Below, in pieces: positions 5,783 through 42,051 of a DNA stretch of 64,000 bases; position 1 is the stretch's first letter; the number at the start of each line of letters is the position of its first letter. The DNA is taken from positions 1,397,662 to 1,461,661 of the forward strand of contig NZ_FOAF01000001.1 in assembly GCF_900109575.1 (NCBI RefSeq). The letters are read 5' to 3'. The translations under genes were made by a program, and so were the position numbers. The notes under the pieces were generated by a model, which saw nothing but the letters and a program-made list of their open reading frames with translations, made no database searches and was not told the DNA's origin. Source of the DNA: Olivibacter domesticus. GTDB taxonomy: Bacteria; Bacteroidota; Bacteroidia; Sphingobacteriales; Sphingobacteriaceae.

Positions 5783-5871
5783 TAATGAAAAAATTAGGTT
5801 TATTTTAGCGAATGCAGTGAATACGCAAAGCAAAGATATAAATATCGGTGTAAAACATTTAATCTCTTACA

Positions 5872-7302
5872 ATGATGTATCCAGTTAGACTACTTTTATT
5901 CACATTCTATTTCTGTATCCCTCCGTACGCTTTTGGGCAGGTGAAACAGAATAAAAAGCCAAATATTTTGCTAATAATTGCGGACGATCTTTCCAAGACA
6001 TTACCCCTTTATGGCGACAGCACCATTACCACGCCTGGTATGGATGGTGTAGCCAAAAACGGAGTAGTATTTGACCATGCGTACTGTTCGGCCGCATCAT
6101 GTACTCCCTCAAGGGCAAGCATTTTAACCGGCAAGTACCCTCACCAACTGGCGGAAGGGGGTAACCTACATGGCACTTTACCTCTGGTATACGAAAATTA
6201 CACCTATATTTTAGCTAAAAATGGGTATCGCGTGGGTTTGCAGGGAAAGGGATGGGGACCCGGGAATTTTACTGCAGGGGGCTATAAAAATAATCCTGCT
6301 GGACAATCCTATCCAAGTTTTGAAAATTTTCTGCAAAATCAGCCTGAAGATACTCCTTTCTGTTTCTGGATTGGCAGCAACGACCCACATAGGCCTTATA
6401 AGCCCTTGCTCAAAGATAGTCTAGGTATTGATTCGCTGAAAGTAAAGGTGCCTGTTTGGCTGCCGAATGATGCGCTAGTGCATCATGATCTGCTGGACTA
6501 CTACGCTGAATCAAAGCGTTTTGACCAAACAGTTGAAAGGGCGATAGCGCTACTCAAGAAAAAAGGAATTTATGACCAAACACTGATTATCATCACCAGT
6601 GATCATGGGATGCCTTTTCCGCGCGTCAAAGCAAATGCCTACGATATGAGCACCAGTGTTCCGCTTATAATACGATGGGATGAACATTTCATGAAGGGAA
6701 AACGGATCAAAGAACTGGTCAGTCTAGTAGATCTGGCCCCAACGTTTCTCTCGGCAGCCGGTATAGATGTGCCCAAGTCAATGGTTGGAAAATCTTTATT
6801 GGGACTGCTTACATCTGGTAAAAGTAACCACGAGCGTACAGAAGTTTTTACCGAGCGGGAAAGGCACGCTTATGTTCGAGCGGGCAACCTGAGCTATCCG
6901 ATGCGGGCAATCAGAACCAACCGTTTCTTGTACATCAATAACCTACGCCCCGAACGTTGGCCGGCAGGAGATCCAGAGAACCCCGAGACGAACAGGTTCT
7001 TTGGAGATATTGACAATGGACCAACGAAGCAACTTTTGCTGGAACATCAAAACGATCCAAATTATAGAAATTTCTGGTTGTGGAGTTTGGACAAACGGCC
7101 TGCCGAAGAACTATATGATCTGGAAACCGATCCGAACCAGTTGAAAAATCTGGCAAATGACCCCTCCTACAATAAGGTTCGGCGTGAATTGGCAACGCGT
7201 CTAATTAAATGGAGGAGCAGCACAAACGACCCTGTGACTGAAACCGCAGAACCTTTTGATAGCTATCCTTACTATGGAGGAAAAATTAAAGGTTTGAAAT
7301 AA
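5872..7302 (+). CDS. Family S1 sulfatase, heparan N-sulfatase (SGSH)-like
   Basis: This is an exported sulfatase of the alkaline phosphatase superfamily, predicted to remove sulfate from a glycan in the periplasm. A signal peptide covers about residues 1-22 (ends YAFGQ). The metal-binding ADD is at 38-39, and the CTPSR motif (Cys77) is where formylglycine is made. The second half holds SNDPHRPYK and TSDHGMPFPR, which carry further metal and substrate residues. The layout, including the short chain and the DPHRPY block, resembles the N-sulfoglucosamine sulfohydrolase group rather than arylsulfatase A. The gene is divergent from the hybrid regulator across 89 bases, which suggests shared control. 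No sulfatase-maturating enzyme is in the window, so activation must rely on one elsewhere. The family is certain; the exact sulfate ester or sulfamide is not. Confidence 0.92.
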   Translation: MMYPVRLLLFTFYFCIPPYAFGQVKQNKKPNILLIIADDLSKTLPLYGDSTITTPGMDGVAKNGVVFDHAYCSAASCTPSRASILTGKYPHQLAEGGNLHGTLPLVYENYTYILAKNGYRVGLQGKGWGPGNFTAGGYKNNPAGQSYPSFENFLQNQPEDTPFCFWIGSNDPHRPYKPLLKDSLGIDSLKVKVPVWLPNDALVHHDLLDYYAESKRFDQTVERAIALLKKKGIYDQTLIIITSDHGMPFPRVKANAYDMSTSVPLIIRWDEHFMKGKRIKELVSLVDLAPTFLSAAGIDVPKSMVGKSLLGLLTSGKSNHERTEVFTERERHAYVRAGNLSYPMRAIRTNRFLYINNLRPERWPAGDPENPETNRFFGDIDNGPTKQLLLEHQNDPNYRNFWLWSLDKRPAEELYDLETDPNQLKNLANDPSYNKVRRELATRLIKWRSSTNDPVTETAEPFDSYPYYGGKIKGLK

Positions 7303-7336
7303 AAACGATTAAAATTTTACTATAATAAATAAGAAG

Positions 7337-7489
7337 GTGACATTAATATCAACTATATATGAACAGCTCGTCGAAATACCTAGTGGCTTAATTGATTTAC
7401 GAGACGATAGAAAAGGTCACAAATGGCGTGTTGAGATTAAAGCTTTTCTACTAGGAAAATTTCAGGTTACTCAAAAGTTGTCTAACTAG
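7337..7489 (+). pseudogene. Possible transposase N-terminal remnant
   Basis: In the 311-base gap after the sulfatase, a GTG-started frame encodes 50 residues and then stops. The segment around EIPSGLIDLRDDRKGHKW looks like the start of ISAs1/IS4-type transposases, which begin with a 'PDPR...HPL' block. No DDE core or terminal inverted repeats are visible, so if the match is real this is a stump. It could also be an unrelated small protein. The rest of the gap (7303-7336 and 7490-7613) shows nothing else; the promoter of the following SDR should lie there. Confidence 0.3.
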
Positions 7490-7613
7490 GCTAGGCCCAT
7501 CGCAGCAGCAGATTTAAATTTTCGGGAACAAAACAGGGTGTTGTCTGGTTATCAATTAAAGTGTTACGATTAGACGTAAACTCTTTTAAGTAATTCTTTA
7601 AAAATTTAAAACA

Positions 7614-8498
7614 ATGACACAATTTAAAAATCCTCATACAAAATACCCTGTTCCCCCCTTTCCAAAACAAGAACAAAAAGTTCCAGGTACGGAGGTCGAA
7701 ATGAAACCTAAAGCCGATCATGGCGAGGAAACTTATACCGGCACAGAAAAGTTAAAGGGTGCAAAAGCTATTATTACCGGTGCTGATTCTGGTATCGGAC
7801 GTGCTATCGCAATTGCCTACGCCCGGGAAGGAGCCGATGTGGTCATCAATTACGGTTATGATATAGAAGATGAAGATGCTGAAGAAACCGTTCATTGGAT
7901 TGAAAAGGAAGGCTGTAAAGCCATCCTTTCAAAAGGCGATCTGAGAAACGAAAATTATTGTAATGAGTTAATAGATATGGCGATCAAGGAATTCGGAACC
8001 ATCGATATACTGGTCAATAATGCGGCATATCAGATGGCTCATAAGTCGCTCGAAGAGATTACCTCTAAAGAATGGGATCGTACTTTTGAGACCAATATCA
8101 GAAGCATGTTTTATTTGAGTAAAGCCGTGGTACCTTACATGAAACCGGGAAGCTCTATCATTAATACGGCTTCGGTTGTTTCCTACAACCCCAATGCGGT
8201 ATTATTAGATTACGCAGCAACGAAAGGAGCGATCCAAAACTTTACAGCTAACCTAGCACAAGTATTGATGGATCAGGATAAGGGTATACGGGTCAATGCC
8301 GTTGCGCCCGGTCCGGTCTGGACGCCCTTAATTCCATCGACGATGCCCGAACCGGAAAACTTCGGAAAAGACAGCCCGATAAAACGTCCGGCACAGCCTG
8401 CTGAGATAGCACCCGCCTATGTCTTCCTAGCGTCGGAAGATAGCAGCTATATTGCGGGGGCAACGATTGCCATAACCGGCGGAAAAGTAGCTTTCTAA
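7614..8498 (+). CDS. SDR oxidoreductase, YghA / general stress protein 39 type
   Basis: This is a short-chain dehydrogenase with the N-terminal extension typical of the YghA/YhdF/YdaD stress group (proline- and lysine-rich opening, then EETYTGTEKLKG). The Rossmann motif TGADSGIG is at residues 55-62, NNAA at 135-138, and the catalytic Ser187, Tyr200 and Lys204 (LDYAATKGA) are all present. The C-terminus is a normal SDR ending (AGATIAITGGK). At 294 residues it matches the family. It probably reduces or oxidises aldehyde or sugar-type substrates with NAD(P) in the cytoplasm; the natural substrate is unknown for this group. It opens a run of stress and envelope genes. An alternative name is glucose/ribitol dehydrogenase, but I see no evidence for a specific polyol. 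Confidence 0.9.
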   Translation: MTQFKNPHTKYPVPPFPKQEQKVPGTEVEMKPKADHGEETYTGTEKLKGAKAIITGADSGIGRAIAIAYAREGADVVINYGYDIEDEDAEETVHWIEKEGCKAILSKGDLRNENYCNELIDMAIKEFGTIDILVNNAAYQMAHKSLEEITSKEWDRTFETNIRSMFYLSKAVVPYMKPGSSIINTASVVSYNPNAVLLDYAATKGAIQNFTANLAQVLMDQDKGIRVNAVAPGPVWTPLIPSTMPEPENFGKDSPIKRPAQPAEIAPAYVFLASEDSSYIAGATIAITGGKVAF

Positions 8499-8688
8499 GC
8501 TTAGTGCTAAACATATTTCGCACACTACGTAAACACCTCATCCATAAGTTTTATGTTATTCAAAGGGATCGATTGGCATAGGAAGTCCTATGTAAGCATG
8601 CGTTATAAGGTTTCTCTTATTTCATTTTAATGAAAAACACTTATTGTTGTGAAGTTATTGACAAAATATAAAAACACAATATTAGAGA

Positions 8689-9582
8689 ATGCTTACGAAT
8701 ACAAGGATACCGATTGGATATATTTTTAAAAAAATTCGCCTACAGATAGTGTACGTTATTATCATCGGGCTGATCGTGAAATCTATCACTATTTATTTTA
8801 TAGATTTGATTCCCCAAATGCCTATAGCCATACCCGCTTTCATTGGAACAGCTATTTCGGTCTTACTATCTTTTAATTTGAATCAATCGTACGATCGCTG
8901 GTGGGAAGCTCGAAAAATATGGGGTGCTATCGTGAATGACAGCAGGAGCTTAGTTCTTCAATTACAATCTTTTGTAAGCAAAGAAAAACAAACCACCATT
9001 AGGCAGATAGCGCTTAGACATGTTGCCTGGTGTTACAGTTTGGGCCAAAATCTACGGGGATTAGATCCGAAAGAAAATATAGAAGACCTGATCAATACGG
9101 AAGATATGCTTGAAATGGACGCCCATAGCAACAAGCCTCTGGCGCTGTTGCAAATGAACGCATTGCAAATTGCAGATCTGAAGAAAGATGGACATTTAAG
9201 CGAATTTTACCACGTTCAGTTGAATACTACTTTGGTCAAGTTCTCGGATACTATGGGGATGGCCGAACGTATAAAGAATACGGTATTTCCAGTTACTTAT
9301 CGGTTGTTTCTTCATTTCATGATTTACGTATTTGTCGTCACTTTATCCATCTCATTGGGAGAAATCGACAGTATATATGAAATTCCTTTACTAGTGGTTA
9401 TTTCAGGATGTTTTTTATTGCTCGAAAGAACGGCCGCCCATCTGCAAGATCCTTTCGACAATCGTCCGACCGATACACCGGTTACCGCTATTGCGAGAAC
9501 CATCCATATTAATACATGCAACCTTCTTAATGAAAGCAAGGTGCCTGCTCCTTTAGCTCCCAAATCGTTCTATGTGCTTTGA
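8689..9582 (+). CDS. Bestrophin family (UPF0187) membrane protein
   Basis: This 297-residue inner-membrane protein is of the bacterial bestrophin family, whose members form pentameric ion channels. Recognition rests on the early hydrophobic helices, the block LNQSYDRWWEARKIWGAIVN near residues 65-84, the conserved middle segment with LRHVAWCY, and the late DPFDNRPTDTPV block, all typical of YneE-type bestrophins. Length fits the family. The gap upstream is about 190 bases and the next gene is convergent, so it is probably transcribed alone. Ion selectivity cannot be predicted: bacterial members studied conduct cations, animal ones conduct anions. Confidence 0.9.
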   Translation: MLTNTRIPIGYIFKKIRLQIVYVIIIGLIVKSITIYFIDLIPQMPIAIPAFIGTAISVLLSFNLNQSYDRWWEARKIWGAIVNDSRSLVLQLQSFVSKEKQTTIRQIALRHVAWCYSLGQNLRGLDPKENIEDLINTEDMLEMDAHSNKPLALLQMNALQIADLKKDGHLSEFYHVQLNTTLVKFSDTMGMAERIKNTVFPVTYRLFLHFMIYVFVVTLSISLGEIDSIYEIPLLVVISGCFLLLERTAAHLQDPFDNRPTDTPVTAIARTIHINTCNLLNESKVPAPLAPKSFYVL

Positions 9583-9703
9583 TTGAATCCTTTGGTGGTA
9601 AAAGCAGTTTAATTTTCATCTGTTTATTTTTGTTTTTTTAATAGTCAGATGGAGCTTACCATGATTAAATAATCATTAAACACGCAGGGGAATGATTATT
9701 TAA

Positions 9704-10192
9704 TCAGGACGGTTCATTAGTTGATTTTATACCTTCTTCTTCATAAGAAACAAAAGGATCAAATTGCCTGCTGCAATAAGCAACCCCTAAAGCGAAAATA
9801 ATATGGGCTAATAATAGATGACCGGCAAAACGCATAAATGGAATGTGCGGAGGATTTGGATGAACACGAAAAAGGATTTTCCAAATCATAACGCCTGTGA
9901 TGCCTCCAATAACTCCCGTGACCAAGCCTTGTTTAGTAGCAGGAATCGTGTTCGTTTTCTTCCAGCATTGCTGGAACACCATCGTCATGACCACACCCAT
10001 GGCATAATGCATAGCCCAACCACTCATTCTAGGGAGCTTGTCTTTATGTGTATGAAACGCTCTTTTTACTATTTGAGCTAATACTTTGGGTTCTTTGAAG
10101 TTTTCACCTTTGGCATGCGAAACAACATAGCTAAAAATGGACATTAATGTTGTGCCGCTTATTGCTGGAATAATGACGGTCTTTGTAATCAT
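9704..10192 (-). CDS. Small multi-span membrane protein of unknown function
   Basis: I do not recognise a named family. The 162-residue protein has about four hydrophobic segments: near residues 5-25, 62-78 (GWAMHYAMGVVMTMVF), 92-110 (VTGVIGGITGVMIWKILF) and 122-142. A basic cytoplasmic loop (IVKRAFHTHKDKLPR) follows the first span. The His-rich motifs HYAMG and MRFAGHLLLAHIIF could bind a metal or heme, but that is speculation. It is followed on the same strand by nothing close, and preceded by the DUF4142 lipoprotein 25 bases upstream, so the two probably form one transcript. Confidence 0.75.
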   Translation of the reverse strand: MITKTVIIPAISGTTLMSIFSYVVSHAKGENFKEPKVLAQIVKRAFHTHKDKLPRMSGWAMHYAMGVVMTMVFQQCWKKTNTIPATKQGLVTGVIGGITGVMIWKILFRVHPNPPHIPFMRFAGHLLLAHIIFALGVAYCSRQFDPFVSYEEEGIKSTNEPS

Positions 10193-30218: not shown

Positions 30219-31454
30219 TCAATCTTTCGCCGGTCCGTACTTGATGAAGAACATAATAGTGGCCGACAGTAAACAAATCACCGCTATGACGAGGAATATA
30301 TTCTGTGAATTACCTGTAATATCGATGGTATGCCCCAGAAGCGGTTCGCCTATGGCGGCAAAGAGATAGCCACACATATTCATAAAACCAATACCTGTTC
30401 CGGTATATTTACTCCCTAGCATATCTGGACTTAGTGGCCAAAAACAAGCTTGAGGCCCGTATACGAAAAATCCGGCCAGTAACATTAAGACACCCCCCAT
30501 CAGCAGATTATGCCCCGGCAATACATACACCCCCAAAGAGATCAGCGCACTGGCCGACATCCCAACAAAAATAGCCTTCAACCGGTCGCGCTTAAAGAAC
30601 GTATCTGATAGCAATCCAAAGGATAAAGCACCCACTGCCATACCAACTGGCAGCAAGAAAGTCACCCATATATGTTCCGGGCTATCCTTCCAATTTTTTC
30701 CCAAGTAATGAACGGGAACCCAAAAGATCAATCCATACCGCGCCATACTTTCAAAACCGAAAGCAAGCGAGGTGAGTAAAAATCGTTTATTCCCCAATAC
30801 CATTCGATAACGTGTTAACCAGGTTTCGGCGGGTTGTTCGGACGCCATCGTTTCACCCTGATCAACGGTTTGCTCCGGTTTATCACGTGCAAGTATCAAA
30901 AAGATCGTGGCGGAGAGCAACAATAATAGCACGGGCAGACGAAAGAGCATCCGCCACTCGTACCCTTGTGCCAGCAGTAAAATCGAAAGAAAGTAAGTTA
31001 CCACGGATGAAAGACCTGCAGCCATGGTATAAAAACCGAAGGCTTTCCCACGTTCCTCCTGCCCCCACCAATTATTGATCAACTTTCCTCCCGGTGCCCA
31101 GGCCATGGATTGAAAATAGCCATTCAATGCCCATAATACCATAATTGGGTATAAACTATTGGCAAAACTAATAGCGATATTGGTAAAAATAGATAAATAA
31201 GCACCCGTTGTCATCATTAGACGGTCACTAAAACGATCAGCTAAATTTCCGTTAATTAATTGACCAACAGAATAACCGATCAACATGCAAAAACTGACCC
31301 AACCGATTGTTGCATATGGAATACTTAAGGCTTGCGCCATTCCTGTTGCAGCCCAGCCAAAGTTATGTCGTCCGGTGTAAAAGAAAAGGTAACATAACAT
31401 CGTTACCAGCAACATCTTCCATTGCTTCTTTCGAAAATCCTTTGTGTGTACCAT
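30219..31454 (-). CDS. MFS transporter, organophosphate:phosphate antiporter-like
   Basis: This is a 12-span inner-membrane permease of about 411 residues resembling the GlpT/UhpT family. Diagnostic segments are FFYTGRHNFGWA in the first span, GYSVGQLINGNLADRFSDR (motif A region), and NGYFQSMAWAPGGKLINNWW followed by GQEERGKAFGFYTM. These align with the GlpT block containing WWSQKERG. Family members exchange a phosphorylated organic anion for phosphate. I prefer the ATG at 31454 (MVHTKDFRKKQW), which leaves a 4-base gap after the dehydrogenase stop; a longer frame starting at 31496 would overlap it. The gene is the second of a two-gene operon with the zinc dehydrogenase. Solute specificity is unknown; a sugar or phosphonate compound is possible. 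Confidence 0.87.
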   Translation of the reverse strand: MVHTKDFRKKQWKMLLVTMLCYLFFYTGRHNFGWAATGMAQALSIPYATIGWVSFCMLIGYSVGQLINGNLADRFSDRLMMTTGAYLSIFTNIAISFANSLYPIMVLWALNGYFQSMAWAPGGKLINNWWGQEERGKAFGFYTMAAGLSSVVTYFLSILLLAQGYEWRMLFRLPVLLLLLSATIFLILARDKPEQTVDQGETMASEQPAETWLTRYRMVLGNKRFLLTSLAFGFESMARYGLIFWVPVHYLGKNWKDSPEHIWVTFLLPVGMAVGALSFGLLSDTFFKRDRLKAIFVGMSASALISLGVYVLPGHNLLMGGVLMLLAGFFVYGPQACFWPLSPDMLGSKYTGTGIGFMNMCGYLFAAIGEPLLGHTIDITGNSQNIFLVIAVICLLSATIMFFIKYGPAKD

Positions 31455-31458
31455 GTAT

Positions 31459-32538
31459 TTAGTCGCCAGCGTGAGGGTTGATAAGAATGCCAACACGTAG
31501 CGGCTTTTTCTTTAGTGCATAATCAAATGCAGCTTCTGCATCTTTCAAAGCAAACTCGCGGCCAACAATTGTTGAAAAGGGAAAGTTTTGATAATGCTCG
31601 CTAATAAAATCAACAGCACATACAAAATCCTCAAAATTATAATTGTGTAGCCCTTTTATCGTTAAAAGTCGGCGTATAACCTTTTCAGCATCTACTTGGA
31701 TTTTTCGCGTATTCAAAACTGCACCTACCCATACCGCTAAACCACCTATAGCGAGCGACGCAAGTCCGAGCTCCATTGCCTCAGGAGAGCCGCTCATATC
31801 AAAGGCAACATCAATGTCTTTAAGATTTTCAGGTGTACCACTGCTCAGCATATGGATTTCGTCTGCGCCAAATTCTTTTGCTTGCAGTAAGCGCTGCTCA
31901 TTGATATCTGCAACATGAATGGTGGCTGCGCCCGCTGCTTTGCTCATTGCTACACTAACAATACCTAAGAGACCTGCTCCTGTAATAAGCACCTTACTAT
32001 TTTTAACAGTACCCGCTAGGCGAAAGGCACCGGCAACGGTTGCAACCGCGCAATTAATGGTAGCAGCAATTGGCAGCGGAATATCTGTAGCGATCTTAAG
32101 TACCGCAGTTCCCGCTTTCAAAATGCAGTGCGTTCCCAAACCTCCATGCAAGGTGTCCGTATTGGTAATTTGTGCATGGCCGTATTTAAAAAGTCCGCTT
32201 CCCTTTTGTGGCATCCCCTTTCGCGCCATTTCAGAGTTCACATCCGAAGAAAATATACTCCATGTAATCCTGTCCCCTACCTGCAATGTATTACCACAGT
32301 AATCCATCCCCGAATGCTGGGCAGATATGGCCAGAATCTCGCCCACTATCTCGTGGCCAAGCACTGTTGGCGTATTTTCCTTTCTTAATCCGCAATAAGT
32401 ATGCAAGTCGCTGCCACAAATGGTGGTATATAAATTTTTGACTAAGATCTCTCCTGCCTCAATTGTTGGAATTGGTACTTCGAGTAATTGCATTGATTCA
32501 TTATGTCCGTGAAAGGCTATTATTTTTGCATTCTTCAT
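31459..32538 (-). CDS. Zinc-type MDR alcohol dehydrogenase without structural-zinc cysteines (HpnZ-like)
   Basis: A 359-residue medium-chain dehydrogenase. Catalytic zinc ligands are visible in TICGSDLHTYCG (Cys41) and GHEIVGE (His60, Glu61). The Rossmann motif is ITGAGLLGIVSV. The lobe that normally holds the structural zinc reads SIFSSDVNSEMARKGMPQKG then FKYGHAQ: the surrounding GMPQK and KYGH blocks match a branch annotated as phosphonate-catabolism-associated dehydrogenase, but all four expected cysteines are absent. NAD(P) binding is expected, with an alcohol, polyol or hydroxyphosphonate as possible substrate. It is co-transcribed with the MFS permease and divergent from fuconate dehydratase across 335 bases, so a role in the fucose pathway is also possible. 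Confidence 0.85.
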   Translation of the reverse strand: MKNAKIIAFHGHNESMQLLEVPIPTIEAGEILVKNLYTTICGSDLHTYCGLRKENTPTVLGHEIVGEILAISAQHSGMDYCGNTLQVGDRITWSIFSSDVNSEMARKGMPQKGSGLFKYGHAQITNTDTLHGGLGTHCILKAGTAVLKIATDIPLPIAATINCAVATVAGAFRLAGTVKNSKVLITGAGLLGIVSVAMSKAAGAATIHVADINEQRLLQAKEFGADEIHMLSSGTPENLKDIDVAFDMSGSPEAMELGLASLAIGGLAVWVGAVLNTRKIQVDAEKVIRRLLTIKGLHNYNFEDFVCAVDFISEHYQNFPFSTIVGREFALKDAEAAFDYALKKKPLRVGILINPHAGD

Positions 32539-32873: not shown

Positions 32874-34103
32874 ATGATCTACAAATTTAACGTTCGAGAC
32901 GTACGCTTTCCTCTTGCCGCCGGAGCAGGTAGCGATGCCGTCCATCAAAATCCTGTATATTCTTATGCCGTTGTTCAGTTAAGGGATGACAACGGTTTTA
33001 CTGGTACAGGTTTAGCCTTCACCCTTGGCGAAGGAACAAACCTTGTATGTAAGGCAGCCGAGTTTTACGCCGAAAAATTACTAAAATGTGATATCGAGGA
33101 GTTAATGTCGCATTTCGGCGAAACCTTTAACCACCTCAGTAATGAACAGCAATTTCGATGGCTCGGGCCACATAAAGGAGTTGTTCACTTAGCGCTTGCA
33201 GCAGTAACCAATGCTTGTTATGACTTATGGGCAAGAAAAAGAGGTGTACCCTTATGGAAATTACTCATCGACCTTCCTCCAGAACAATTGGTCAACACGC
33301 TGGATCTATCCTATTTAGAAGATGAACTGACGCGGGAGCATGCTATCCAGCTGCTGAATGAAAACAAAACAAGTCAACACACGCGGATGAGCATTATTAA
33401 AGCGGGTTATCCGGGCTATGATACATCCGTGGGCTGGTTCAATTACAGCGACGACGACATAAAAGTAAATTGCCGTAAAGCCATCGACAACGGTTTTAGC
33501 GCATTGAAACTTAAAGTCGGCAGCCCGGAGCCCGAACGTGATATACGCCGCGCACACCTCGTTCGGGACATTGCCGGCAATGATGTAAAAGTAATGCTCG
33601 ACGCCAACCAACAGTGGACATTGCCACAAGCACTTTTCATCGGAAAAAAACTACTTTCTATGAATCCCTATTGGATAGAAGAACCGACGCATCCTGATGA
33701 TATTTTTGCACACCAGCTACTAGCTAAAAACCTGGCACCCTGCAAAATTGCTTTAGGAGAACACGTATCCAACCGCATTTTATTTAAAAATTACCTCCAA
33801 TTGGAAACAGCAGGTTTTATTCAAGTAGATGCCTTACGCGTTGGGGGCGTAAGCGAATTTATCAGCATCAGTTTATTATGTCGTAAATATGGAATTCCTG
33901 TTGTACCACATGTAGGTGATATGGGCCAGCTACACCAACATCTGGTTCTTTTTAATCACATTAGCTTAAATCACGAGGCCCTATTTCTAGAACATATACC
34001 ACATTTAAAAAGCCACTTCGAACAACCGGTAGTAGTACAGGATGGAGTATATAAGACCCCGATGGAAGCAGGCAGTAGTTGTAACTTCAAGGAAATGTTA
34101 TGA
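32874..34103 (+). CDS. fucD: L-fuconate dehydratase (enolase superfamily)
   Basis: This 409-residue cytoplasmic enzyme dehydrates L-fuconate to 2-keto-3-deoxy-L-fuconate (EC 4.2.1.68), the third step of the non-phosphorylating fucose pathway known from Xanthomonas. Recognition rests on the FucD-specific opening (VRFPLAAGAGSDAVH), the RWLGPHKGVVHLALAAV block and the mandelate-racemase-type core. Core residues are the general-base lysines in ALKLKVG (near 212-214), metal ligands Asp243 (MLDANQQW), Glu269 (WIEEPTHPDD) and Glu296 (ALGEHVSN), and the catalytic His346 (VVPHVGDMGQ). It overlaps the following symporter gene by 4 bases (ATGA), a clear sign of co-translation. L-rhamnonate dehydratase is a related alternative, but the overall wording and fucosidase neighbours favour fuconate. 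Confidence 0.92.
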   Translation: MIYKFNVRDVRFPLAAGAGSDAVHQNPVYSYAVVQLRDDNGFTGTGLAFTLGEGTNLVCKAAEFYAEKLLKCDIEELMSHFGETFNHLSNEQQFRWLGPHKGVVHLALAAVTNACYDLWARKRGVPLWKLLIDLPPEQLVNTLDLSYLEDELTREHAIQLLNENKTSQHTRMSIIKAGYPGYDTSVGWFNYSDDDIKVNCRKAIDNGFSALKLKVGSPEPERDIRRAHLVRDIAGNDVKVMLDANQQWTLPQALFIGKKLLSMNPYWIEEPTHPDDIFAHQLLAKNLAPCKIALGEHVSNRILFKNYLQLETAGFIQVDALRVGGVSEFISISLLCRKYGIPVVPHVGDMGQLHQHLVLFNHISLNHEALFLEHIPHLKSHFEQPVVVQDGVYKTPMEAGSSCNFKEML

Positions 34104-35746
34104 TGTTAAAACCCATCGATTTAACGATTGCTGTCCTGTATATCCTTTTCATATTCGTTATAGGACTTTGGACGGGCTGGCAACATAAAAGAAGTATAAA
34201 AGGCAAAAGCGGCCAGGCTTATTTCTTGGCCGGCAAAACCTTAGCCTGGCCTGCCATCGGTTTGGCATTGTTCGCCACCAATATATCTACCGTTCATTTA
34301 GTTAGTCTTGCCCAAAGTGGTTTCGACACGGGGCTGCTCAATGGAAACTTTGAATGGATGGCTGCGTTTACGCTTATTCTTCTAGCCTTGTTTTTCATCC
34401 CCTTTTACCTCAAATCGGGCGTATCAACGCTTCCAGATTTCCTGGAAAGAAGATACGACCGAGCGAGTAGAGACTGGCTAACGGTTATTTCTATTATATC
34501 TGCTATTGTCATACACATAGCCTTTTCTATGTTAGCTGGTGGTATTGTTCTCAAAACCCTCTTCGGGTTCAATATGTACCTAAGTATCTCCGCCATTTGC
34601 GTGGTAACCGGCATATATACCATTATCGGTGGATTGAAAGCAGTGGTAGTTACCGAATCCATTCAAACCATCGTGTTGCTTTTAGGCGCATTCATCATCA
34701 GTTTTGCTGCATTTCACCAAATGGGCGGATGGCAGCCAATGGTAACTGTTCTGAAAGAAAATGCGGAACTGGAAAAGCTATCCATGCTCCGATCCTCTTC
34801 AGACCCTAGTGGAATGCCCTGGTATGCGGTACTTTTCGGTTATCCTGTTTTGGGGATTTGGTACTGGTGTGCAGACCAAACGATCGTGCAACGTGTGCTC
34901 GGTGCGAAAGATGAGAACCATGGCCGTATAGGTGCACTATTTTGCGGATTTATAAAAATTTTGCCTGTATTTATCTTTATCCTACCGGGATTGTTCGCCT
35001 ATACGTTGAGCCAAACAGGGCGGCTCGATCTGCAAAGCCTAGGTGTAAATGATCAGGGAGAAGTTAATTCTAAGGGCATTTATGCCCTAATGATTACACA
35101 GTTGCTTCCTTCCGGTTTGATAGGTATATTGGTTGCGGCCTTACTTTCGGGGCTGATGAGTCAAATATCCGGTGCGTTAAACTCCATCTCAACATTAGTC
35201 AGCTACGATATTTATAAGCGATTTCGGCCCCAAGCACATGACGAACAACTAATTAGGGCAGGAAAGGTAGCAGCAGTTATCGCCATGATCGTATCATTAG
35301 GCCTGCTACCTTTGCTAAACAAATATGAAAGTATATTTAACGGCATAAACGACGTTATCGCCCATATCGCACCACCTATTACCTGTGTGTTTCTGTTGGG
35401 TGTTTTTTGGAAGAAGGCATCACCTATGTCCGCTAAGCTAACACTCTGGATAGGGTCCGTTTTGGGAATTGTTGTCTTTACCATTAGTAAATATGATTTA
35501 GAAAGCTTTATCGGAAAAATTCCGTTCATGGTGATGGCCTTCTATCTATTTGTTGTCTGTTTGGTTTTACAAATAAGCTTGTCCTTTTTATTTCCAACAA
35601 AAACCAATATACAACGCCATGATTTATACTGGAAAAACCCTTTAGATGCCTTACGTGGCCCGGCTTGGAAAGGTGTAGGTAATTATAAATTTTTATCTAT
35701 TTTATTATTCACGGTAATCTGTTTACTTTATGCCTTATTTCACTAA
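34100..35746 (+). CDS. SSS-family sodium:solute symporter (probably L-fucose)
   Basis: A 548-residue inner-membrane symporter with about 13-14 spans. It has the SGLT-type blocks YFLAGKTLAWPAIGLALFAT and NISTVHLVSLAQSGF, the SSF signature region TIIGGLKAVVVTESIQ, and later GLIGILVAALLSGLMSQISGALNS. These define sodium-coupled sugar transporters. It overlaps fuconate dehydratase by 4 bases and precedes the fucose-dehydrogenase-like SDR by 46, so L-fucose (or fuconate) is the likely cargo. Two in-frame ATGs (34100 and 34103) are equally possible starts. Assignment to SSS is firm; the substrate is inferred from context. Confidence 0.9.
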   Translation: MMLKPIDLTIAVLYILFIFVIGLWTGWQHKRSIKGKSGQAYFLAGKTLAWPAIGLALFATNISTVHLVSLAQSGFDTGLLNGNFEWMAAFTLILLALFFIPFYLKSGVSTLPDFLERRYDRASRDWLTVISIISAIVIHIAFSMLAGGIVLKTLFGFNMYLSISAICVVTGIYTIIGGLKAVVVTESIQTIVLLLGAFIISFAAFHQMGGWQPMVTVLKENAELEKLSMLRSSSDPSGMPWYAVLFGYPVLGIWYWCADQTIVQRVLGAKDENHGRIGALFCGFIKILPVFIFILPGLFAYTLSQTGRLDLQSLGVNDQGEVNSKGIYALMITQLLPSGLIGILVAALLSGLMSQISGALNSISTLVSYDIYKRFRPQAHDEQLIRAGKVAAVIAMIVSLGLLPLLNKYESIFNGINDVIAHIAPPITCVFLLGVFWKKASPMSAKLTLWIGSVLGIVVFTISKYDLESFIGKIPFMVMAFYLFVVCLVLQISLSFLFPTKTNIQRHDLYWKNPLDALRGPAWKGVGNYKFLSILLFTVICLLYALFH

Positions 35747-35792
35747 ATAATTTGAAATTCTTACACATTCTTGTTCATTGAAATTTATACCT

Positions 35793-36566
35793 ATGAAATC
35801 ACTAGAGGGAAAAACAATCTTGTTAACAGGCGGAACGGACGGTATCGGTTTGGCTTGTGCGACAGCTTATGTTGAAGCCGGAGCCCAATTGGCCGTCATC
35901 GGCATCGATCAAGATTCGATTGACAGGACATTAAAACTAATTGGCGCAAGCAACCACCTCGGGCTTTTATGCGATGTAAGCATAGAAGCGTACGTTAAAA
36001 CCGCTATCGCACGTACACTCGAACGCTTTCATAAAATAGACGTTATACATAATAATGCGGGAATTGCATCACCTTCAAAACCATTACACGAAACAAGTGA
36101 TCACGAATGGCAATGCCTATTCGATGTCAACTTAAGAAGTATACTCTATACTACGAGATATGGTTATAAACACTTAAAAGAAACGCAAGGCTGTGTCATC
36201 AACACCAGTAGTTTGGTAGGTGATATCGGACAAGAAAATCACGCTGCATATGCAGCCACAAAGGGAGCGATGAATGCACTCACCAAATCCATGGCGCTGG
36301 ATTACGCAAAAGACCATATCCGGGTTAATGCCGTTTTACCGGCAGCCGTGATGACGCCCATGCTGAAACAATGGATAAAAGAGCAGCCTCAGCCTGAAAA
36401 AATCGTGGATTTTTTAGAAGATATTCATCCTTTAGGTTACTGCCCAGAGGGTGATGTCATTGCGGATGCATGTGTATTTCTTGCATCAGAAAAAGCGCGC
36501 TTTATTACCGGTGTTACGTTGCCCGTTAGTGGCGGAGCCGAACTGGGTTATCGCAGAAATAGCTAA
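35793..36566 (+). CDS. SDR, L-fucose dehydrogenase-like
   Basis: This 257-residue classical SDR has TGGTDGIG at 12-19, NNAG at 87-90, and the catalytic Ser140, Tyr153 and Lys157. Its wording is close to human HSD17B14, a known L-fucose dehydrogenase: VINTSSLVGDIGQENHAAY and the unusual C-terminal SGGAELGY match that protein's pattern. It would oxidise L-fucose to the lactone with NAD(P), the first enzymatic step before fuconate dehydratase. I chose the ATG at 35793 (MKSLEGKTILLTGG); a TTG at 35778 could add five residues. An alternative is 2-keto-3-deoxyfuconate 4-dehydrogenase, another SDR of the same pathway. The gene ends one base from the convergent AraC gene. Confidence 0.87.
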   Translation: MKSLEGKTILLTGGTDGIGLACATAYVEAGAQLAVIGIDQDSIDRTLKLIGASNHLGLLCDVSIEAYVKTAIARTLERFHKIDVIHNNAGIASPSKPLHETSDHEWQCLFDVNLRSILYTTRYGYKHLKETQGCVINTSSLVGDIGQENHAAYAATKGAMNALTKSMALDYAKDHIRVNAVLPAAVMTPMLKQWIKEQPQPEKIVDFLEDIHPLGYCPEGDVIADACVFLASEKARFITGVTLPVSGGAELGYRRNS

Positions 36567-36567
36567 T

Positions 36568-37440
36568 TTAATGAGGTATCAGCGTTTTTCTATAGTCGGA
36601 TGGTGTCTGTCCTTTTACCTCTTTAAATAACTTATTAAAATTAGAAAGGCTGTTGAAACCGCATTCATAAGCTAGACAGGTTATTTGCTTTTCCCCTTCA
36701 GCAATCAACTTGCAGGCATGGCTGATGCGTACCTCCGTCACAAACTCCATAAAGGTGCGCTGTGTCCGGTTTTTAAAAAACCGGCAAAATGCATGCCTGC
36801 TCATATGTACGATATCAGCAACATCTTCCAGTTTAATCTGCTGTGAGAAATGATCAAATATGTATTTAAGAATTTTATCAATACGATCATTATCCTTAAG
36901 TTGGTACGTATTCGTGTAACCTGCTTTTGTAAGCAGATCAAATTCTTTCGTATGCGCCAAAATTTTAAGAATCTGCGCCAAAATTGTCAAACGTTCAAAA
37001 GTTTCTTCTTGCTCATTGATTTTGAATAATAAGTCTTTCAAGTGCTTCTTGGTATCTCCATAGAACTTTAATCCGGATTTACTAACTCCAAGAATATGCG
37101 AGAGCCTTTGCATATTCCCGAACGTCCCCAACAATTGTAGAAGTTTGCATGGATGTATAAAAAGAGAAACCGACTTCGCTCCTTCCGTGCCGTCTCTGAA
37201 GTATAATGGATTGTTGTGCCATACATGAGGTACATTAGATCCAACAAGTATCAGTTCATCCGGACCGAAATTTTCTACGCTGTCTCCGATCATGCGTTTG
37301 CCTTCACTTTCAACCACATAAATTAGCTGGCATTCTTCGTGGAAATGAAAGGTCGTCGAAAAATAAGGCAATTCCACAATTTTTGTTCCGAACACCTCAT
37401 TTTCCTTTCCTTGTAAAATAGTAGCTTGTATAGGTTTCAT
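36568..37440 (-). CDS. AraC-family transcriptional regulator (cupin sensor)
   Basis: A 290-residue activator with an N-terminal cupin (FHFHEECQLIYVVESEG, then VPHVWHNNPLYF). A C-terminal AraC double helix-turn-helix follows: IKLEDVADIVHMSRHAFCRF and ITCLAYECGFNSLSNFNKLF. The cupin probably binds a sugar. It is divergent from the GH95 fucosidase (328-base gap) and convergent, one base apart, with the fucose-dehydrogenase-like SDR. A role as fucose-responsive regulator of both operons is the simplest reading. Length and architecture are like RhaR/MelR-type sugar regulators. Confidence 0.93.
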   Translation of the reverse strand: MKPIQATILQGKENEVFGTKIVELPYFSTTFHFHEECQLIYVVESEGKRMIGDSVENFGPDELILVGSNVPHVWHNNPLYFRDGTEGAKSVSLFIHPCKLLQLLGTFGNMQRLSHILGVSKSGLKFYGDTKKHLKDLLFKINEQEETFERLTILAQILKILAHTKEFDLLTKAGYTNTYQLKDNDRIDKILKYIFDHFSQQIKLEDVADIVHMSRHAFCRFFKNRTQRTFMEFVTEVRISHACKLIAEGEKQITCLAYECGFNSLSNFNKLFKEVKGQTPSDYRKTLIPH

Positions 37441-37768
37441 TTATATTGATTTGGCAGAACTAAAATACGGTATATTAACATAAAATAATAAAAAATTAAT
37501 AAAAATTGTTAAGATACATTCAACACTAGCTAATATAGATTTATTAAAGGAAATAATTTTTTTTAGTTATGGCGAAGGAGTCGGCAAAGCAATATACAGG
37601 TACGATCAGCAAATCAAAGGTGTACTATTCTCTTAGGTAAGATTAACAAACTAAAGCAAAAATAGCGGTAAAACATTAATATAAAATCAGTCTTTGCAAA
37701 CATAGTATTTGTTTCTCAGCCTTTCATTTTAGACATTAGCATCCACTAAACAATATAAATATCAATTT
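37441..37768. other. Divergent regulatory region, AraC / GH95
   Basis: A 328-base AT-rich gap. It holds a 23-codon frame at 37569-37640 (MAKESAKQYTG...) that I do not believe is a gene. It should contain the AraC binding sites. If the GH95 start is a fusion to an SDR gene (see below), the promoter here may be that of the lost SDR. Confidence 0.45.
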
Positions 37769-37816
37769 ATGCTAAACGGTAAAGTTGCTTTACTTACAGG
37801 TGGAAGCGAAGGCATT
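37769..37816 (+). other. SDR N-terminal relic fused to the fucosidase
   Basis: The first 16 codons of the GH95 frame read MLNGKVALLTGGSEGI, an ordinary SDR beginning with the TGGxxGI cofactor motif. The frame then changes to a hydrophobic signal peptide (FFIALIFVVISSIQSTYAQ). No other start codon lies between, so translation must begin in the SDR part. The upstream SDR at 35.8 kb is not a close nucleotide match, so the donor was a different SDR gene. Confidence 0.8.
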
Positions 37817-40240
37817 CTATTCAAAGCCAAATTCTTTATAGCTTTAATTTTTGTTGTAATATCCAGTATCCAATCTACATATGCGCAGCAGTACCAAAAT
37901 AAGCTCTGGTATACAAGTCCAGCCGATGCCACCGCAAAAGATAACCCTGATGGTTGGGTAAGCGACCAAGAATGGCTAAAAGCTTTACCTATTGGTAATG
38001 GGCGCATGGGTGCTATGGTTTTTGGCGATGTAAATCAAGAACGGGTCCAACTGAACGAGCTCTCGCTTTGGAGTGGTAGTGTAGACGATAACGACAATCC
38101 TGAAGCAAGAAAATATCTTCCGCAAATAAGAAAGCTACTTTTTGAGGGTAAATACAAAGAAGCTTCTGAACTGACCAACAAAACCCAGGTCTGTAAAGGA
38201 AAGGGTTCTGGCCAAGGCAACGGAGCCAATGTACCTTTTGGCTGTTATCAAACTCTTGGCGATCTGTGGTTGGATTTTGGAACCAAAGGAAAAGCTTATA
38301 CAGATTATAGTCGTGAGTTGGACTTGATCAATGGAATTGCTAAGAGTTCGTTTACTCAAAATGGCGTAACCTATATCCGCGAGGTTTTTTCCTCTTTTCC
38401 AGATCAAGCTATTGTCATCCGATTAACCGCAAATAAACCAAAATCAATCAGTTTTAGCATAGACATCAATAGACCCGAACGTTTCAAAACCATCTCTACT
38501 AATAAACAACTGGTAATGAGCGGCATCCTTGATAACGGTAAAGGTGGAGATGGTATGCATTACAAAACTTTTGTTACGCCCTTACTTACCGATGGAACGT
38601 TAAGTACCAAGAACAATCAATTGCAAGTAAGCCAAGCTACTGCAGTAACCATCTTGATTACCGCCAAAACCAATTACCGATTACACTATCCCGATTACAT
38701 CAACAATAACTTTGAAAAAGAATTAGATGCGATTACGAAAAAGGCAGGTTCGAAAACTTATATCGCCCTAAAGCAGGCACATATGAAGGATTTTTCGGCC
38801 TACATGAACCGGGTAGACCTTAAGCTTGACAACGCAAACAACATTCTACCCACCAACGAGTTGATGGGCAAAAATTTTGAGTTAAAAAACGAAAATGCCT
38901 ACTATCCATTGTATCTTCAGTTTGGCCGTTACCTATTGCTATCTTCATCGAGAGACGGCGGTTTGCCAGCCAATTTACAGGGCATTTGGGCCAATAAAAT
39001 CCAAACACCCTGGAATGGCGACTACCATACCGACATTAACGTACAAATGAACTACTGGCCTGCCGAAACCACCAATTTGGCAGAGTGCCACAAGCCTTTG
39101 ATGGATTTGATTTTTTCTATCCAGGAACCAGCAAAAAAAACGGCCAAAACACAATATGGCATGAAAGGCTGGGCCTTGCACCCCGTTACTAATGTTTGGG
39201 GGTATACGGCGCCCGGCGAACACCCCAGCTGGGGTATGCACGTTGGTGCTGGCGCCTGGATTGCACAACACCTTTGGGAACATTACGCTTTTAACAACGA
39301 CAAAAGCTTTTTGACCAAAGCCTATCCTGCTCTTAAAGGAGCTTGTATGTTTTATCTCGATTGGCTGGTGAAAGATCCTAAAACCGGAAAATTAGTTTCA
39401 GGCCCATCGCCATCGCCAGAAAACACCTTTAAAGCTCCAGACGGCGCTACAGTGCAAATCAGCATGGGGCCAACGCACGATCAAGAAGTGATTTATGATT
39501 TATTTGAACACACGTTAGCAACAACAAAAATACTGGGTATCAGCGATGCCGCTTTTGTTAAAAACTTAACCGATGCCAAAAACAAGCTGGCCCGCCCGAA
39601 AATTGGAAGCGATGGAAGATTGATGGAATGGGCGAAAGAATTTGAAGAGGTAGAGCCTACACACAGGCATCTCTCGCATTTATTTGCCCTGTACCCGGGC
39701 AACGAGATTTCCCCAAATAAAACTCCCGAGCTGGCAGAGGCGGTAAAGAAATCTTTAGAAGCACGTGGCGACGGAGGTGTGGGCTGGACATTCGCCTGGA
39801 AAATTGCACTTTGGGCACGTCTACATGACGGTAATCGCGCTTTAAGCATCCTTAATAGCCAACTCCGGCCTACCACAGAAGTAAATACCCTTTACAACAA
39901 AGGCGGCGGCGCTTATTACAACTTGTTTAACGCCGGTCCCCCCTTCCAAATAGATGGTAATCTTGGCATAATTGCCGGCATGGCCGAAATGTTTGTGCAA
40001 AGTCATGAGGAATTTATTGAACTATTACCAGCCTTACCGAACAAATGGAAAGAAGGATCGATTAAAGGATTGGTTGCCCGTGGAGGTTTCGTAGTAAACA
40101 TAGAATGGGAAAACGGTAAGCTGACCGCTGGAAGTATTACCAGTAAAAAAGGTGGCAAATGCAAAGTAAAATACGGCGATAAAATCATCAGTCTTAGCAT
40201 ATTGCCGGATCAAACGTTAACTATAACCGAAAAATTATAA
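37769..40240 (+). CDS. GH95 alpha-L-fucosidase with SDR-derived N-terminal extension
   Basis: This 823-residue exported fucosidase is expected to remove alpha-1,2-linked fucose with inversion. After the 16-residue SDR-like leader and the signal core (about 20-38, ending STYAQQ) comes the GH95 N-domain: LWYTSPADA, then LPIGNGRMGAMVFGDV and QLNELSLWSG. The (alpha/alpha)6 core has TDINVQMNYWPAETTN with the catalytic asparagines, FEEVEPTHRHLSHL with the acid glutamate, and FQIDGNLGIIAGMAEM near the end. Length is normal for the family once the leader is ignored. The leader leaves an unusually long n-region; whether export still works is unknown. GH29 follows after 32 bases. It is probably controlled by the divergent AraC regulator. 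Confidence 0.93.
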   Translation: MLNGKVALLTGGSEGILFKAKFFIALIFVVISSIQSTYAQQYQNKLWYTSPADATAKDNPDGWVSDQEWLKALPIGNGRMGAMVFGDVNQERVQLNELSLWSGSVDDNDNPEARKYLPQIRKLLFEGKYKEASELTNKTQVCKGKGSGQGNGANVPFGCYQTLGDLWLDFGTKGKAYTDYSRELDLINGIAKSSFTQNGVTYIREVFSSFPDQAIVIRLTANKPKSISFSIDINRPERFKTISTNKQLVMSGILDNGKGGDGMHYKTFVTPLLTDGTLSTKNNQLQVSQATAVTILITAKTNYRLHYPDYINNNFEKELDAITKKAGSKTYIALKQAHMKDFSAYMNRVDLKLDNANNILPTNELMGKNFELKNENAYYPLYLQFGRYLLLSSSRDGGLPANLQGIWANKIQTPWNGDYHTDINVQMNYWPAETTNLAECHKPLMDLIFSIQEPAKKTAKTQYGMKGWALHPVTNVWGYTAPGEHPSWGMHVGAGAWIAQHLWEHYAFNNDKSFLTKAYPALKGACMFYLDWLVKDPKTGKLVSGPSPSPENTFKAPDGATVQISMGPTHDQEVIYDLFEHTLATTKILGISDAAFVKNLTDAKNKLARPKIGSDGRLMEWAKEFEEVEPTHRHLSHLFALYPGNEISPNKTPELAEAVKKSLEARGDGGVGWTFAWKIALWARLHDGNRALSILNSQLRPTTEVNTLYNKGGGAYYNLFNAGPPFQIDGNLGIIAGMAEMFVQSHEEFIELLPALPNKWKEGSIKGLVARGGFVVNIEWENGKLTAGSITSKKGGKCKVKYGDKIISLSILPDQTLTITEKL

Positions 40241-40272
40241 GGTATGCTTAAATAATACATAAATCACATTCC

Positions 40273-41571
40273 ATGACTAAGAAAATTATATTCCTATGTG
40301 TTTTTATCGTAGCCAATTTTAACGCGTATGCACAGGCTGATAAAGAAGCGCTCAAAAAATTCATGAACGATCGTTTCGGTATGTTTATCCACTGGGGACC
40401 CGTGAGCTTACGCGGAACGGAAATAGGTTGGAGCAGAGATAATCAGGTGGCGGTAAACGACTATGATAGTCTATACAAAGAATTCAATCCGGTGCTTTTC
40501 AATGCGGAAGATATTGTTAAGGTAGCTAAAGATGCTGGAATGAAATACCTCACCATCACGGCACGCCATCATGATGGATTTTGCCTTTGGCCTTCGGCCT
40601 TTACTGATTACGATATTACCAACACACCCTATAAAAAAGATATTGTTGCAGCTTTGAATGAAGCCTGCAAAAAGGCAGATATCAAATTCTGCATCTATTA
40701 CTCCGTGCTAGATTGGTACCATCCAGATTATCCGAAACACAGCTCGAAAGAAATTCCTTTGGATCCTAAGTCGGACATGCCGAAATATATCGCCTATATG
40801 AAAAACCAATTAAAGGAATTGATCACTAACTATGATCCCTACATGCTCTGGTTCGACGGTCAATGGGAAAAACCATGGACGGATGAGATGGGTAAAGATA
40901 TATATGATTATGTTAAAGAACTAAAGCCCAGCATTATCACCAATAACCGCTTAGGAAAAGAAATGGCCGGTGTGGACAACAAAACAACCGATCATACCAA
41001 GATTATCGGTGATTATGATACCCCCGAACAAGTGGTGGGCAAGATGAATATGGATTTCCCTTGGGAAAGTTGTTTCACCATCTGTCAACAATGGTCGTGG
41101 AAACCCAACGATAAAATGAAATCGCTGGATACCTGTATCAGTATACTGGCAAAGACGGCAGGAGGAAACGGCAATCTTTTATTAAATGTTGGCCCCATGC
41201 CTGATGGCAGGATCGAAGCGCGTCAAATAAAACGCTTGGAAGAGATTGGTGACTGGCTGAAAACAAACGGCCAAGCTATTTACGGTACCTTAGGTGGACC
41301 GTACGAACCCAAGTCCACTTATGCTACCACCAGAAAAGACAACAAAGTCTTTATCCATCTATTGGAAACCAGTGCTTCAACCATCGACCTTAAACAGCTA
41401 CCAAACAGAAAAATAAATAAGGCCTACGTGCTGGGAGGCAGTCCGGTATCTATTACCCCACATCAAGAGAATTTTACGCTTTTCCTTCCAGCAAAGCAGC
41501 ATGCCCGTACCCCCTATGTTGTCGTACTGGAGCTAAATGGGAGCAGTGAGAATCTACCCATCATTAAGTAG
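40273..41571 (+). CDS. GH29 alpha-L-fucosidase
   Basis: A 432-residue periplasmic retaining fucosidase. The signal peptide ends at NAYAQ (residue 21). Conserved pieces are RFGMFIHWGPVSLRG, the TARHHDGFCLW histidine pair (99-100), and the catalytic nucleophile Asp195 in MLWFDGQWEKP. The later WSWKPNDKMKS segment and the GGNGNLLLNVGPMPDG block are typical of the family. The C-terminal beta domain is short. The acid/base is not conserved enough in GH29 to name here. It lies between GH95 and the mutarotase and complements GH95 on other fucose linkages (alpha-1,3/4/6 types). Confidence 0.95.
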   Translation: MTKKIIFLCVFIVANFNAYAQADKEALKKFMNDRFGMFIHWGPVSLRGTEIGWSRDNQVAVNDYDSLYKEFNPVLFNAEDIVKVAKDAGMKYLTITARHHDGFCLWPSAFTDYDITNTPYKKDIVAALNEACKKADIKFCIYYSVLDWYHPDYPKHSSKEIPLDPKSDMPKYIAYMKNQLKELITNYDPYMLWFDGQWEKPWTDEMGKDIYDYVKELKPSIITNNRLGKEMAGVDNKTTDHTKIIGDYDTPEQVVGKMNMDFPWESCFTICQQWSWKPNDKMKSLDTCISILAKTAGGNGNLLLNVGPMPDGRIEARQIKRLEEIGDWLKTNGQAIYGTLGGPYEPKSTYATTRKDNKVFIHLLETSASTIDLKQLPNRKINKAYVLGGSPVSITPHQENFTLFLPAKQHARTPYVVVLELNGSSENLPIIK

Positions 41572-41616
41572 GCAGATTGATTACAGGAATTTTGTTCAGA
41601 GAAGAATCGCTATAAA

Positions 41617-42051
41617 ATGAGGCTTTATATAACAGGTTTGATCACCCTATTCATACTTTGTATCTTTGGTTGTCAGCAAAATCAGAAAGCGAAAGAAATG
41701 AGAAATAATAATATACAACGCTATGGATCGGTAACAGGCGTCAAGCCTGAAAAGCTTTCGTATTATAAAGAACTGCATGCAGCCATTTGGCCGGATGTGG
41801 CAAAAAAAATTACGGAATGCAATATTCAGAACTACTCTATCTACCTAAAAGAGATAGACGGGCAATTTTACCTGTTTAGCTATTTTGAGTATGTAGGAAA
41901 CAATTTCTCGACAGATATGCAGAAGATGGCTACCGATACGGCAACACAGCGCTGGTGGAAAGAAACAGACCCAACACAACTACCACTACCAGATGCGGCA
42001 GACAAAGGAGAAATTTGGAGCCCCATGGAAGAAGTATTTCATCAAGATTAA
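41617..42051 (+). CDS. L-rhamnose/L-fucose mutarotase-like lipoprotein
   Basis: A 144-residue protein of the RhaM/DUF718 type, which interconverts alpha and beta anomers of deoxy sugars. The core has the conserved YKELHAAIWPDVAKKI (catalytic His), then NYSIYLKEIDGQFYLFSYFEY, and the closing RWWKETDPTQ. Unlike most members it begins with a lipoprotein signal (lipobox, Cys19), so it would act in the periplasm or at the outer membrane. It ends the GH95-GH29 operon. Placing a mutarotase outside the cytoplasm makes sense if the importer prefers one anomer of the fucose released there. Rhamnose is an alternative substrate, but context favours fucose. Confidence 0.88.
   Translation: MRLYITGLITLFILCIFGCQQNQKAKEMRNNNIQRYGSVTGVKPEKLSYYKELHAAIWPDVAKKITECNIQNYSIYLKEIDGQFYLFSYFEYVGNNFSTDMQKMATDTATQRWWKETDPTQLPLPDAADKGEIWSPMEEVFHQD

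Follow-up and report, generated by a model that had tools for sequence, protein, structure and literature searches.

A full SDR enzyme has a Rossmann domain with a catalytic YxxxK, and its N-terminal nucleotide-binding motif reads TGxxxGIG. In relatives of Olivibacter domesticus, genes of this family head fucose operons that face a divergent AraC-family regulator. A search of 301 family genomes with the AraC gene at 36568-37440 gave matches at E <= 1e-60 in 48 (its own included); the loci of 30 of the best matches were taken, and longer stretches (8-16 kb) were compared for 19 loci. Among the 29 loci other than its own, 13 have an SDR gene, here referred to as SDR-A, divergent to AraC and followed by an enolase-family gene, and the other 16 have a different divergent gene (e.g. 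a fucosidase or a mutarotase) or none found by a frame scan. The SDR-A loci share the order AraC (divergent), SDR-A, enolase, SSS-family symporter, GH29 and mutarotase, with a TonB-receptor/SusD pair inside the run in two, and in 5 of the 13 a GH95 gene lies further along the same gene run. The order nearest to the window belongs to Niabella hibiscisoli (L091), with AraC, SDR-A, enolase, SSS, GH95 and GH29, and the mutarotase further on. In this record (1280-9736) AraC, GH95 and GH29 each lie in several frameshifted pieces, perhaps through assembly errors of that record. A second arrangement, type B, occurs in Sphingobacterium (g16) and runs enolase, SSS, mutarotase, GH95 and SDR-B in L162, L164, L182 and L185, and enolase, SSS and SDR-B in L165.

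The window, which here means the whole stretch of 64,000 nucleotides of O. domesticus DNA that was analyzed, contains the following features.

32874-34103, plus strand: gene of a sugar-acid dehydratase (enolase superfamily), closest to type B (PF13378/PF02746)
34100-35746, plus strand: symporter gene of the SSS family, closest to type B (PF00474)
35793-36566, plus strand: intact SDR-B gene (PF13561/PF00106; ATG at 35793, first possible start TTG at 35778)
36568-37440, minus strand: AraC-family regulator gene, divergent from the fused gene (PF12833, PF00165)
37675-37700, plus strand: degenerate copy of the block GCTAATATAACATCAnTATTAGCAAA, a probable AraC operator
37769-40240, plus strand: fused GH95 alpha-L-fucosidase gene (domain matches, PDB matches, trees)
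37769-37816, plus strand: SDR-A remnant covering codons 1-16 with the start codon, MLNGKVALLTGGSEGI (direct reading, leader alignments)
37814-37816, plus strand: ATT codon of Ile16 at the junction, where the start codon of the ancestral GH95 gene stood (spacing to KLW)
37817-37885, plus strand: GH95 signal peptide LFKAKFFIALIFVVISSIQSTYA (direct reading, hydropathy), with predicted cleavage before QQ
40273-41571, plus strand: GH29 alpha-L-fucosidase gene, the next operon gene (PF01120)
41617-42051, plus strand: sugar mutarotase (RhaM family) gene, next and in the same direction (PF05336)

Read directly, the frame at 37769-40240 is open for 823 amino acids and begins MLNGKVALLTGGSEGI, then LFKAKFFIALIFVVISSIQSTYAQQYQNKLWYTSP; a Sec-type signal peptide, LFKAKFFIALIFVVISSIQSTYA, stands right after MLNGKVALLTGGSEGI and is followed by QQ. 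An in-frame scan found no ATG, GTG or TTG between codon 1 and codon 80, and no start codon lies in frame 5' of 37769 back to the upstream stop, the letters before the Met being TLASTKQYKYQF. The earlier note had described a frame that opens as an SDR N-terminus and turns into a signal peptide and GH95 without an alternative start between them. Both observations hold, the leader scoring 55 against SDR-A (below) and the next in-frame ATG, GTG or TTG being codon 80. If translation starts at ATG 37769, the precursor stretch MLNGKVALLTGG is expected in the product. The GH95 domains are complete in Pfam, all above cut-off (PF14498 at residues 46-304, PF22124 at 331-741 and PF21307 at 744-806). Nine distinct PDB sequences match the fused protein, with 2rdy as the best (E 1.4e-165), and by its domain content the gene is a predicted GH95 alpha-L-fucosidase.

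The first 16 residues resemble SDR-A starts. Their best BLOSUM62 score, 55, was obtained against eight SDR-A N-termini (range 47-55), all of the ML..K form, with 9-10 of 16 identities and equal M-to-K spacing. The runner-up among 3226 16-mers at start codons of the window scores 33, at the SDR-like gene at 47977, and none of 200,000 random 16-mers reached 55. SDR-A starts read ML..K....TGG..GIGWEC in nine of the 13 loci and in Niabella, and MN.NLHQK....TGG..GIGWEC in the other four. At the DNA level, the 48 bases of the leader gave z values of 4.2-7.9 against 10 of 14 SDR-A starts and 1.0-3.3 against the four MN.NLHQK starts, with the L158 start placed 3 bases off in this comparison as well as in the upstream-DNA and block-distance comparisons. 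The leader motif TGGSEGI is truncated ahead of the final G of TGxxxGIG, and the full SDR Rossmann domain is absent, the frame becoming GH95 past residue 16. A Pfam search with the first 44 residues of the frame gave no match, which is unsurprising with 16 SDR residues. Judged by these alignments, the leader is the remnant of an SDR and no SDR enzyme.

The same 16 residues could derive from an SDR-B-type gene, partially duplicated and set before GH95, instead of from a deleted SDR-A. The leader shares 10 of 16 residues with the window's own SDR-B (score 51) and 9 of 16 with the SDR-B of L037 (score 42), and the DNA comparison with the window's SDR-B gave a z of 3.5. Since SDR-B is as similar as SDR-A in protein, the discrimination falls to the start spacing, the DNA and the upstream sequence. 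The spacing is of the SDR-A type, and the 110 bp upstream of the leader are similar to the corresponding region in 8 of 14 SDR-A loci (equalled by 0-30 of 1000 shuffles), whereas the SDR-B upstream region, used as a control, is similar to none of the 14 (equalled by 99-612 of 1000). In the other six SDR-A regions, Niabella's included, similarity to the window's 110 bp was not significant (105-574 of 1000 shuffles). The repeat search showed no repeat pair at the junction, and we regard such a duplication as very unlikely. Origin from SDR-A remains the preferred reading.

The traits that mark the front of the SDR-A-led operon are present at the fused gene: the divergent AraC, the block (in degenerate form), the SDR-A-type start and the conserved spacing. 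The AraCs that adjoin SDR-A in relatives (13 of the 29 other loci) are 54-58% identical to the window's. The block GCTAATATAACATCAnTATTAGCAAA lies between AraC and SDR-A, with small variations, in 12 of the 13 SDR-A intergenic regions, L158 having parts only. Its distance to the ATG is 68 bp in the window, 67-71 bp in 9 of the 13 relatives and 110-112 bp in the other four. The window copy scores 17 bits vs 22-38 for SDR-A loci, on a matrix built on nine of those loci; a first matrix had given 12.4 vs 11.6 for the best of 20 random windows. It ranks second of 127,950 window positions and ties with a position at 31388 inside an MFS transporter gene, which was taken as chance. The block is a probable AraC operator. 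The intergenic region between AraC and the ATG (37441-37768) measures 328 bp, compared with 120-282 bp in relatives, and the surplus falls on the AraC side in the alignment.

In the AraC tree, the window's regulator falls within the large clade that includes the SDR-A AraCs but pairs (support 86) with three g16 AraCs that face genes other than SDR-A, a placement that counts against the deletion scenario given below. The AraC subfamily faces fucosidases or a mutarotase in L119, L124, L134, L138, L145 and others, with a related upstream block in several, and GCTAATATAACATCAnTATTAGCAAA occurs in weaker form also beside other AraCs of the family. Given this variety of neighbours, the regulator and its operator may travel as a unit from one fucose gene to another.

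On the other side of AraC, the genes at 32874-36566 are nearest to type B. The enolase is 72-74% identical to type B and 69-72% to type A in g14 loci (nearest rows 74% and 72%, respectively). The symporter is 75-77% identical to type B and 64-67% to type A, and SDR-B 68-71% identical to SDR-B and 55-60% to SDR-A. In phylogenetic trees, which were quick, unrooted and without bootstrap, each of these three proteins branches with five type-B rows (SH-aLRT 100), the window row standing at the type-B base, with a close placement for SDR and SSS and a looser one for the enolase. The window GH95 groups with g14 rows and Niabella (SH-aLRT 95), a grouping with nine g16 rows being rejected (p-AU 0.0018), and the GH29 is likewise placed with Niabella and the g14 rows, with an unstarred support of 92. 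The Niabella GH95, GH29 and AraC rows of these trees were joined from separate pieces, with internal stops as X. The AraC pieces (minus strand) were joined in the wrong order, so that the Niabella position in the AraC tree is unreliable, and the Niabella enolase branch is very long (0.76). From these comparisons, the stretch 32874-36566 has the look of a type-B cassette, and 36568-42051 that of an operon of the SDR-A type minus SDR-A, enolase-A and SSS-A. Taken as a whole, the locus resembles a hybrid between the fucose operons of two lineages. NCBIfam gave no equivalog above cut-off for SDR-B, the enolase or the symporter, the last passing the superfamily model TIGR00813 only, so the substrates of all three are putative. 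MFS transporter and zinc alcohol dehydrogenase genes at 30219-32538 (minus strand) adjoin the type-B cassette, and similar MFS and alcohol dehydrogenase genes (54% and 51%) are present in L148.

The window order from AraC onward is AraC (divergent), SDR-A codons 1-16 fused to GH95, then GH29. Ile16, encoded by ATT, lies 29 residues before KLW, and the initiator Met of GH95 lies at the same distance before K[LI]W in L153, L155 and L158, and 27 and 28 residues before it in L151 and L159, respectively. Since Ile16 occupies the place of the initiator Met, the join would have removed the GH95 start codon itself. We consider it highly probable that a single in-frame deletion in an SDR-A-led operon made the SDR-A/GH95 fusion, with the type-B cassette covering the lost functions. 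The ancestor would have carried AraC (divergent), SDR-A, enolase, SSS, GH95, GH29 and mutarotase, in the order kept in Niabella, and a deletion of about 3.7 kb (from the Niabella spacing) would have begun at SDR-A codon 17 and ended at the GH95 start codon, keeping the frame. The GH95 frame would then be headed by the promoter, operator, 5' leader and codons 1-16 of SDR-A, with translation from the SDR-A ATG. The product would be a pre-fucosidase with a 21-residue n-region (net charge about +2), most likely exported by Sec and cut after STYA, the SDR peptide being discarded. The dehydrogenase, dehydratase and symporter functions would be supplied by the cassette upstream of AraC, which may have made the lost genes redundant. 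The mosaic composition, the similarity of the leader to SDR starts, the upstream block, the absence of a GH95 start codon and, at the sensitivity of the genome search, of an SDR-A orthologue elsewhere are observed. The deletion as an event, its timing relative to the gain of type B, the use of the start site, export and AraC control are the parts of this scenario that we infer. A repeat search found no repeats at the junction, and the deletion was therefore probably illegitimate; base composition in 700-base steps gave nothing useful there. That TGGxxGI is still legible, though free of selection for nucleotide binding, suggests a recent event.

Translation might instead begin at the junction. 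ATT is a rare start codon, as in infC of E. coli, and here it stands where L153, L155 and L158 have their initiator Met, so a transcribed leader followed by initiation at ATT would yield a normal signal peptide without SDR residues. Set against this, AUU initiation is very rare, and the SDR-A ATG is whole and in frame together with its own 5' leader; we judge a start at the ATT to be unlikely. An assembly chimera of two separate loci at 37816/37817 must also be weighed, as the junction is known from one assembly only and occurs in no other genome searched. It is nevertheless in frame within an open gene of 823 amino acids and lies deep in its contig (the window covers 1,397,662-1,461,661, and contig matches extend up to 2,453,329). 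In addition, the genes on both flanks share one operon type in relatives, and an SDR-A orthologue was not found elsewhere in the genome. A chimera is, in our estimation, extremely improbable.

The presumably deleted genes were also sought elsewhere. Between AraC and the fucosidases, intact SDR-A, enolase-A and SSS-A are absent (for enolase-A the search covered the window). In the rest of the genome no SDR-A orthologue was found at the sensitivity of the search, SDR-B being 58% identical and all others at most 36%, and no SSS-A was found, the type-B SSS being 67% identical and the next 35%. GH95 paralogues in the same genome gave seven matches, two of them pieces of one stretch, with 32-45% identity except for a 70-residue piece (59%). 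The DNA of 36568-38300 had no match in 4 other genomes of the genus, and with that of 37441-37900 only short matches, about 34-45 bases long, turned up in 2 of 59 other genomes. One locus, L032 (genome G039), has a 45-base stretch 82% identical to window positions 37758-37802, overlapping the leader; in a simple frame scan of L032, no reading frame from an ATG opened with TGG..GIG. Class-wide searches with AraC (395 genomes, E <= 1e-90) and GH95 (385 genomes, E <= 1e-250) found no closer locus, and none of the genomes searched showed an intermediate state.

The earlier note had further traced the leader and promoter to a lost SDR gene joined to a secreted fucosidase and had suggested a comparison with relatives that keep the two genes apart. 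This origin is supported: the parental order is present in 13 of the 29 other AraC loci and in Niabella, and an upstream block is shared with relatives. Its proposal that the fusion probably placed the fucosidase under the SDR's regulation finds no support in that form, as the SDR-A gene run of Niabella and of 5 of the 13 SDR-A loci already includes a downstream GH95. The fusion would have promoted GH95 to first gene and cost it its own start codon, probably without creating new AraC control. The note had also recognized that a leader shared by GH95 proteins of distant species would speak against a fusion. Of 126 loci surveyed for GH95 leaders, L028 gave no match and L091 was dropped (its best piece starts at residue 124), leaving 124 rows with some genomes represented twice; none of the 123 rows other than the window's carries an SDR-like leader. 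The Niabella GH95 start, read by eye, is also without an SDR leader, and no ATG was found ahead of its signal peptide in the frame read.

Inspection and hydropathy both show the traits of a Sec signal in the fused protein, namely a positive n-region (charges at K5, E14, K19 and K21), a hydrophobic core and small residues ahead of the cleavage site. The most hydrophobic 12-mer has residue 23 as its first, so 22 residues precede the core. The distance from the nearest Met to the core is 0-27 residues in 114 other GH95 rows, with a median of 6 and more than 22 in 3 of the 114, and 7 further rows have no Met ahead of the core. Since long signal sequences exist elsewhere, export of the fused fucosidase would be expected to continue. 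Long signal sequences with a domain organization are described for autotransporters (PMC2805444), and that precedent, with the unusual length of the n-region here, could favor a leader selected for function, such as slowing or regulating export of the fucosidase. The sequence, however, resembles an SDR start and not an evolved signal domain, and none of the relatives examined has it; a selected function seems improbable to us. About as likely as not is the broader idea of a hybrid signal peptide born of an operon deletion. In it, the secreted fucosidase would have exchanged its own start for the promoter, 5' leader and 16 codons of a cytoplasmic dehydrogenase from the same pathway, and the first beta-strand and glycine loop of that dehydrogenase would serve as a working n-region, tolerated or even tuning export.

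The fusion relic is real and well supported and its parental states are clear, and its general interest is modest. Both parental arrangements are legible in relatives, and the position of the junction is known to one or two bases. Such a gene, with a foreign start and beside a redundant cassette, helps the study of operon turnover, and it offers a natural test of how much extra n-region length a Sec signal peptide tolerates. It is also a warning that fused genes of this sort could be misread when starts are called automatically or signal peptides predicted. Among the titles turned up by a few narrow literature searches the fusion is undescribed, which leaves room for a published description elsewhere.

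Compared with known systems, the locus shares with the SDR-A-led operon of Sphingobacteriaceae relatives and Niabella the divergent AraC, the block, the SDR start and the downstream fucosidase and mutarotase genes; it differs in having no SDR-A past codon 16, no type-A enolase and no type-A SSS, and in a GH95 fused to the SDR start. The cassette at 32874-36566 has the same gene order as L165 and is of the Sphingobacterium type in the trees, but unlike that type it lies upstream of AraC and has no GH95 of its own. As in the solved GH95 alpha-L-fucosidases (2rdy, 8zbv, 7kmq, 4ufc and 2eab), the N-terminal, catalytic and C-terminal domains are whole, and the window protein differs from them by the 16 SDR-derived residues ahead of its signal peptide. 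With the autotransporter signal sequences (PMC2805444) it has in common a long stretch before the hydrophobic core, whereas its own leader would owe its origin to a gene fusion and has no family-wide conservation.
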